Under the pieces are notes generated by a model that saw only the letters and a program-made list of their open reading frames with translations, had not been told where the DNA came from and searched no databases. The translations under genes and the position numbers were made by a program. From Lachnospiraceae bacterium (GTDB lineage: Bacteria > Bacillota > Clostridia > Lachnospirales > Lachnospiraceae), in the NCBI GenBank assembly GCA_014799465.1, contig JAAVHZ010000004.1:26131-90130 (forward strand): DNA of 64,000 bases, written 5' to 3'. Of the stretch, positions 16,759 to 17,886 are shown one piece after another; the first letter of the stretch is position 1; every line of letters begins with the position of its first letter.

Positions 16759-17784
16759 TCAACTTTCTTCAAATATTCTCAACTTTTTCACAATCTCCTC
16801 TGGTTCCGGCAACATTTCCTTCATATTTTCCGGCAAAGAATTACTCAGTTGATACGTTGCCACTCCAATCGGTGCATTAGTCTGTTTTAAAGCATATTCT
16901 ACATATGTTTTGTCTTTGGTTTTGCAAATAATAATTCCAATAGAGGGATTCTCATCCGCTAACTTTACCTGCTCATCCAATGCTGTTAAATACAACTGCA
17001 TTTTCCCTGCATACTCCGCTTCAAACTCTCCTATTTTCAATTCGATTGCCACCAAACTTCTTAATCTCCGATGAAACAATAGTAAATCAATATATAAATC
17101 TCTACTTCCTACCGTTAAATGATATTGATTACCAATAAATGTAAAGTCACCACCCATTTCAATCAAAAAAGCTCTAATATTGTTCACCAACTGCATTTCC
17201 AACTCATACTCTGAATACTCCGGTGATAATTCTGCAAAATCGAAGGTATATTCATCTTTCACTGCCAACTTCGCTTGTATTCTACGTTCTTTTGGTAATG
17301 TAATATCAAAATTTGTTTGGTTCAACATATATTTTTCATAGGTTTGTGCTTCCACAAAATTAGCTAAGATACGCTTTGTCCAACCATATCTCTTTGTCAT
17401 TTGAATATAAAATTCCCTTTGCAAGTCATCTTTGCACTTTTCCATAATAATTATATTGTTGCTCCAGCTAATTTCTCGCACCAGTGGTGCGAGTCTTTCA
17501 GAATTGCGATAACTCAAATAAAAATTTCGCATTCTCCAAAGATTTGCTGCTGAGTATCCTTTAGCACCCGGAAATTCTTTCTGCAACTCTTTTGATAATA
17601 CCTGAACAATAGATTTTCCCCATCCATTTTCTTCCTGCTGCCTATATATTTCTTCTCCAATCTCCCAGTAAAGGTTTATTGTTTCAGAGTTGATTGATTT
17701 TAACACTTTATACTGTTTTTTATGTATTAATTCTTTCACCTCGTCTACTAAAAGCTTATATTCCATGATTTCAAAATCTTTCAA
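16759..17784 (-). CDS. YhcG-like PDDEXK nuclease (DUF1016 family)
   Basis: The N-terminal DUF1016 region (about 1-155) has LYWEIGEEIYRQQEENGWGK and FPGAKGYSAANLWRMRNFYL. The C-terminal PDDEXK nuclease fold has DLYIDLLLFHRRLRSLVAIE followed by LKIGEF, giving the D...ExK active site. The track start at 17832 would translate a palindrome as the N-terminus. I prefer the TTG at 17784, six bases after GGAGGG, which puts the palindrome in the 5' leader. Family members are predicted nucleases, often mobile or linked to defence; the target is unknown. Two copies of one 19-base palindrome flank and interrupt the gene. Confidence 0.88.
   Translation of the reverse strand: MKDFEIMEYKLLVDEVKELIHKKQYKVLKSINSETINLYWEIGEEIYRQQEENGWGKSIVQVLSKELQKEFPGAKGYSAANLWRMRNFYLSYRNSERLAPLVREISWSNNIIIMEKCKDDLQREFYIQMTKRYGWTKRILANFVEAQTYEKYMLNQTNFDITLPKERRIQAKLAVKDEYTFDFAELSPEYSEYELEMQLVNNIRAFLIEMGGDFTFIGNQYHLTVGSRDLYIDLLLFHRRLRSLVAIELKIGEFEAEYAGKMQLYLTALDEQVKLADENPSIGIIICKTKDKTYVEYALKQTNAPIGVATYQLSNSLPENMKEMLPEPEEIVKKLRIFEES
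17475..17493. repeat. 19-base palindrome inside the YhcG-like gene
   Basis: CTCGCACCAGTGGTGCGAG has 9-base arms around one central base. It lies within the coding sequence and encodes part of LAPLVREIS. It is identical to the leader copy at 17801-17819. Confidence 0.9.
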
Positions 17785-17800
17785 TATATTCCCTCCAAAT

Positions 17801-17819
17801 CTCGCACCAGTGGTGCGAG
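17801..17819. repeat. Identical palindrome in the leader of the YhcG-like gene
   Basis: This second exact copy of CTCGCACCAGTGGTGCGAG lies 5 bases upstream of the GGAGGG ribosome binding site of the TTG-start nuclease gene. In RNA it would form a stable hairpin just ahead of the ribosome binding site; in DNA it could be an operator. Confidence 0.85.
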
Positions 17820-17886
17820 AAATTAATATCATATATTAGTAACTATGTTTTCACACTAACAAATTATTGTCATAAAAATCGTGTTA

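Follow-up and report, generated by a model that had tools for sequence, protein, structure and literature searches.

Why should a nuclease gene carry one and the same palindrome both in its leader and within its coding sequence? The question is raised by a yhcG gene of a Lachnospiraceae bacterium, located in a 64,000-nucleotide stretch of contig JAAVHZ010000004.1 (positions 26,131 to 90,130; hereafter, the window), in which a preliminary description had noticed two identical copies of a 19-base palindrome. On the plus strand, CTCGCACCAGTGGTGCGAG is found exactly at 17475-17493 (in-gene) and exactly at 17801-17819 (leader), 326 bases apart from start to start and not 327 as first given, and the claim that chance recurrence is unlikely agrees with the expectation of 0 matches to CTCGCACCAGTGGTGCGAG in shuffled windows. 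The gene (16759-17784) lies on the minus strand, and the coding-strand reading of both copies is CTCGCACCACTGGTGCGAG. It belongs to YhcG/DUF1016, a very common family of unknown function that occurs in E. coli K-12, on plasmids, in prophages and in archaea. On balance, we favor the view that the palindrome is a site bound by YhcG itself through a ParB-like domain, carried within the gene and travelling with it.

The leader copy is the core of a 21-bp palindrome, TCTCGCACCAGTGGTGCGAGA (17800-17820), which ends 4 nt before a Shine-Dalgarno sequence, GGAGGG (17791-17796, minus strand), read directly from the sequence; its 19 central positions (17801-17819) equal the in-gene copy. Gene starts are inferred ones throughout this work. 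Here, the TTG codon at 17784-17782 is the probable start and a better fit than the ATG at 17832, where the mechanical open reading frame begins, because it follows the Shine-Dalgarno sequence by 6 nt and because the ATG would place the leader palindrome inside the coding sequence. The in-gene copy (17475-17493; like the leader copy, not assigned to a strand) encodes L-A-P-L-V-R-E, and its center, at 17484, lies exactly 18 nt before a conserved Trp codon (17464-17466, minus strand; W107 counted from the TTG start), which anchors the position of the palindrome across the family.

A palindrome at a fixed position in the family

Relatives were drawn from 397 same-family genomes, from bacterial and archaeal genomes of many phyla and from viral contigs; the 171 considered here are those with a placeable Trp codon matching W107 of the window protein, and, coming from one bacterial family and a motif-based scan, their counts are not a census. 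When all centers were scanned in these relatives, complementarity over eight flanking pairs reached 0.82 at exactly -18 nt and was about 0.25 elsewhere. Replacement of codons by synonymous codons of the same gene lowered the mean number of pairs from the observed 6.56 to 3.70 of 8, and at least 7 of 8 pairs, seen in 77% of the genes, were present after synonymous shuffling in only 2.2%. With one representative per cluster of 50% identity, 17 of 23 had 7 or 8 pairs (2.3% expected), and five of the remaining six have, by inspection, a palindrome elsewhere in a longer loop. Likewise, palindromes at -48, -51, -60, -84 and other distances belong to loci with a longer loop there. The same shuffling rules out that the palindrome arises from amino-acid constraint. 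Since exchange of synonymous codons destroys it, either selection acts on the nucleic acid itself or some process working there preserves the palindrome, which is no side effect of the encoded protein.

In 12 loci (L050, L054, L055, L058, L063, L064, L066, L068, L072, L074, L080, L166), the lengthened DUF1016_N loop holds palindromes in tandem pairs, and tandem-copy loci encode near-repeated peptides (e.g., ITPQAVAQ...ITPQAVAQ).

Private sequences and additional copies

The sequence of the palindrome varies between subfamilies as well as between paralogues of one genome, with 57 distinct half-sites among 137. A second copy is often present, and such extra copies, whether they occupy the leader, follow closely on the stop codon or stand in tandem within the gene, match the palindrome of their own gene: when the in-gene region was compared with the flanks, the best match of a 19-mer reached at least 18 in 22/171 cases with the gene's own flanks vs 20/4275 with swapped flanks, and at least 16 in 43/171 vs 130/4275. 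Leader copies mostly end 4-9 nt before the Shine-Dalgarno sequence, and the others are either in-frame tandem copies or found at the stop codon or no more than a few bases away from it; detection of second copies within loci takes in a few chance matches, and counts of these architectures are thus approximate. The in-gene copy stands alone in many relatives, among them most of the cross-phylum set, and in seven such single-copy relatives the in-gene site is the sole match in the genome search. The in-gene copy is the ancestral, family-wide part of the arrangement, and the leader copy is one of several optional placements.

The source genome itself contains two further YhcG genes (G000:C6:99247-100254, L033, and G000:C6:244658-245602, L035), and the palindrome differs among its three paralogues, each of which also has a second copy of its own palindrome; in the two additional genes, this second copy lies at the stop codon in one and in the leader in the other. 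Moreover, the half-site CTCGCACC recurs in Lachnospiraceae, Thermodesulfovibrionales, Sedimentisphaerales, proteobacterial and Hymenobacter genes, and half-site identity increases with DUF1016_N identity. Hence, the site follows the gene and its protein across phyla, not the host.

These observations bear on two further explanations that involve repeats. A palindrome common throughout the genome and unrelated to this family was the possibility that the preliminary description had raised against itself; in the whole 3.6-Mb assembly, with up to 3 mismatches allowed, no match to CTCGCACCAGTGGTGCGAG exists beyond the in-gene and leader copies, and relatives have their own private versions. With 2 copies here and 1 in each of the seven relatives, a generic genomic repeat is ruled out, and dispersal of the type known for repetitive extragenic palindromes (REP) with their associated transposases (RAYT) or for Rickettsia palindromic elements (RPE) was not found. 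A selfish small element of this kind might nevertheless settle in and around yhcG, its symmetry being kept by template-switch correction and not by selection, and the in-gene tandem copies, the variable placement and the symmetric double changes between copies would suit such an element. However, the codon position is fixed across distant phyla, the copies are genome-unique or locus-confined, and template-switch correction alone would keep palindromes everywhere, not just here, all of which makes this explanation very improbable. REP/RAYT systems and RPEs resemble our case in that short palindromes are tied to a nuclease-like gene or lie in frame within genes, but the YhcG palindromes come without an HUH transposase and are not genome-dispersed. 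The small mobile palindrome of the preliminary description is therefore unsupported as a genome-wide element, though copies do multiply beside the gene. A homing endonuclease, for its part, would have its target disrupted in the occupied allele, whereas intact sites are present both in and beside yhcG; in an empty-site comparison within the genus, made for the insertion in the window, the neighbors were too diverged.

Single loci show further arrangements of the copies. In L005, yhcG is 5'-truncated and its open frame begins shortly ahead of the palindrome, a structure that recombination between leader and in-gene copies might leave behind. In L020 (open-frame positions 30-69), two diverged tandem leader palindromes read in frame as EKLxxVxREL-like peptides, and in L015 and L016 the gap between a small upstream gene and yhcG consists of little beyond the palindrome and the Shine-Dalgarno sequence.

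Duplex DNA, transcript or hairpin

Most extra copies could be transcribed, given their places immediately ahead of the Shine-Dalgarno sequence, within the open frame or at its stop codon, and strong RNA folding is predicted for both window copies (-13.6 and -15.2 kcal/mol). It would thus be conceivable that the palindromes act as hairpins in the leader, coding part or 3' end of the gene's own mRNA, where binding or cleavage by the protein would control its translation or stability. RNA stems, however, should favor G-U pairs, and the expected G-U tolerance on the transcribed strand is not seen: at paired positions, G-T and A-C mismatches number 9 vs 12 in the in-gene copies, 13 vs 9 in external copies and 10 vs 10 in extra in-gene copies. 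Additionally, the palindromes match no Rfam family, and one E. coli copy is situated after gltD, 7 kb away from yhcG. We consider RNA hairpins improbable, and the translation-controlling hairpin pair suggested earlier is disfavored, as wobble pairs are no commoner than A-C mismatches. Since G-T is about equal to A-C, the counts speak against an RNA hairpin and for a DNA feature with double-strand symmetry, and they are consistent with dimer binding of duplex DNA. In some clades, the half-site retains an asymmetric W position (GTGWCA), as in protein-bound duplex sites.

The E. coli locus illustrates how the copies vary. In K-12, yhcG holds three in-gene copies with 39-nt spacing and one after the stop codon (GAATTCTGCAGACAGTGTCTGCAGAATC); the four have the common core CAGACNNNGTCTG, and their outer arms differ but are largely symmetric, with further symmetric variants of the palindrome in other E. 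coli strains. The additional K-12 copy lies directly after gltD; a stretch with the palindrome beside gltD has matches in 2239/5426 genomes. Where yhcG is missing from E. coli strains (L198, L202-L205), one perfect palindrome lies between gltD and nanQ; the gltF-yhcADEFG island of K-12 has palindrome copies at both ends (L206:2139). The copies thus flank the island and, in those strains, persist without yhcG; either yhcG was lost by recombination between copies, with one remaining, or the gene arrived beside a pre-existing site. In E. coli ET791 (L186), an IS1 insertion and a partial yhcG have palindromes on either side.

Given outer arms that differ in sequence but keep their symmetry, both within a locus and among E. 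coli strains, the palindrome might instead be a DNA hairpin or cruciform substrate, in which the nuclease would read the loop-proximal core and a sequence-independent stem and nick or cut it, copies then recombining so that the gene or parts of it are gained or lost. Close relatives with a constant core and differing outer arms point the same way, as do the perfect gltD-nanQ palindrome retained by yhcG-less E. coli, the bracketed K-12 island and the locus L005, which begins at the palindrome and lacks the N-terminal part; moreover, YhcG_C was placed near the YraN-like Holliday-junction resolvases (PMC1189080). On the other hand, the asymmetric W position in some clades (GTGACAC opposite GTGACAC) fits duplex recognition and not pairing, cutting its own gene would be costly for a nuclease, and the nearest folds are EndoMS/NucS, not resolvases. 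We regard a hairpin or cruciform substrate as rather unlikely.

A putative ParB-like domain and the proposed role of the site

The preliminary description had named the gene a PDDEXK nuclease gene, and the domain searches bear this out. The window protein is a full YhcG/DUF1016 member by both its domains, DUF1016_N (PF17761, E 2.8e-43; 17332-17742, minus strand) and the PD-(D/E)XK nuclease domain YhcG_C (PF06250, E 5.9e-58; 16807-17265, minus strand), with 147.8 and 195.6 bits, respectively, vs curated cut-offs near 33; it also matches PDC-S02, a phage-defence candidate of PADLOC (E 2.8e-134). The catalytic D...ELK motif is intact, D233, E248 and K250 being invariant in an alignment of 59 relatives and all present in the window protein. 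Among solved structures, the nuclease domain is nearest in fold to EndoMS/NucS and XisH, and EndoMS/NucS is the best Foldseek match of the full model (E 3.9e-4), but the N-terminal domain of YhcG is another and mismatch activity is not known for YhcG. The nuclease domain was predicted previously, when its likeness to YraN-like Holliday-junction resolvases and to DUF91 was pointed out (PMC1189080). A PDB sequence search with the whole protein or the N-domain profile gave no usable match.

For the N-terminal domain, the model (predicted local distance difference test, pLDDT, 95) contains helices 59-70, 79-92, 98-104 (encoded by the palindrome) and 107-116, of which helix 79-92 (SAANLWRMRNFY...; 17509-17550, minus strand) is a candidate DNA-reading helix of a putative ParB/Noc-like helix-turn-helix. 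The leading Foldseek matches of this model are the DNA-binding domains of ParB, Noc and SopB, at E 0.5 or worse. In hhalign, the DUF1016 region aligned to the ParB DNA-binding region with a score of 27.7 vs a maximum of 18.2 in 100 column-shuffled decoys (P 4.5e-4; probability 33%), pairing LxxLxxxISWxH...GWSxRxLExQI of DUF1016 with VQxMIxxExxSxGHARALL...LSVRxxEKLI of ParB; whole-length ParB gave no match to DUF1016_N, the alignment being obtained for the DNA-binding regions only. In ParB/Noc, the aligned stretch holds DNA-contacting and specificity residues (G/R201, R204), the dimers bind palindromes, and specificity can be switched by a few residues (PMC7383237). The ParB CTPase domain (GERR motif) is absent, the first part of the window protein being a long helix without a ParB match in Pfam, and the protein is therefore not filed as ParB.

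Of the four options offered in the preliminary description, an autoregulatory operator and the nuclease's own recognition site fit these results best. We propose that the putative N-terminal helix-turn-helix may dimerize on the palindrome, one subunit per half-site, as ParB does on parS, and that each YhcG lineage would have diverged to its own half-site, the in-gene site and the extra copies changing alongside. Since the second copy of the window gene lies just upstream of the Shine-Dalgarno sequence, binding at two sites would let the nuclease limit its own expression; possibly, occupancy of the leader and in-gene sites shuts down transcription of the gene, as an operator combined with a roadblock and perhaps with looping. 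Known systems offer partial parallels. One B. subtilis parS is situated within spo0J, and the lac operator O2 is an intragenic auxiliary operator inside lacZ. As in lac-type auxiliary operators, one palindrome occurs twice, in the leader and in the gene, a few hundred bp apart, but the YhcG site lies in the presumed binder's own gene and is conserved across phyla. With ParB/Noc and their parS and Noc-binding (NBS) sites, YhcG shares a palindromic site private to a presumed DNA-binding protein, a weak resemblance of DUF1016_N to the ParB DNA-binding domain by fold and by profile, which extends over the SxGHAR and SVRxxE stretches, and a diversification of specificity of the kind known for ParB/Noc (PMC7383237). 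It differs in lacking the N-terminal CTPase domain, with a PD-(D/E)XK nuclease fused instead, in half-sites about 3 bp apart, in a far greater sequence diversification and in a family-wide in-gene site.

Several observations weigh against binding by YhcG as the explanation of the palindrome. The likeness to ParB/Noc, though consistent between the model-based and the profile comparison, appears weak in both, and an in-gene copy alone, as in most relatives, is unusual for an operator. Copies of the same locus often differ by symmetric double changes, as in the E. coli outer arms CGC/GCG, TGG/CCA and CTG/CAG; one fixed protein specificity would not require symmetry at variable positions, and a hairpin or cruciform role therefore keeps some of its appeal. 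Proteins with a 92% identical N-domain can have different outer arms. Moreover, the places of the extra copies are landmarks of translation (the stop codon, or the bases immediately ahead of the Shine-Dalgarno sequence), where a transcriptional operator need not be. A promoter scan of the region did not rise above chance, a terminator scan of the same region returned no intrinsic terminator, and the leader-to-in-gene distances among loci showed no clear 10.5-bp phase, so that looping is unsupported by the spacing.

In a broader and more tentative picture, which we hold to be possible though doubtful, YhcG/DUF1016 proteins may be fusions of a ParB-like domain and a nuclease with a loading site in their own gene, gene and address moving together by horizontal transfer; they would form a large set of orthogonal protein-palindrome pairs, the site symmetry of which might be kept by DNA pairing (hairpin or cruciform) together with protein contacts. 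Our literature search found no paper linking YhcG/DUF1016 genes to a palindrome. The palindrome, fixed in position, private to its gene and copied beside it, is a candidate substrate for nearly every member of the family. If this is true, each gene of an orphan family would reveal the DNA target of its product, and numerous natural, mutually orthogonal protein-site pairs would be at hand for studying the evolution of DNA-binding specificity; the palindrome offers a first point of entry to a widespread protein whose function is unknown.
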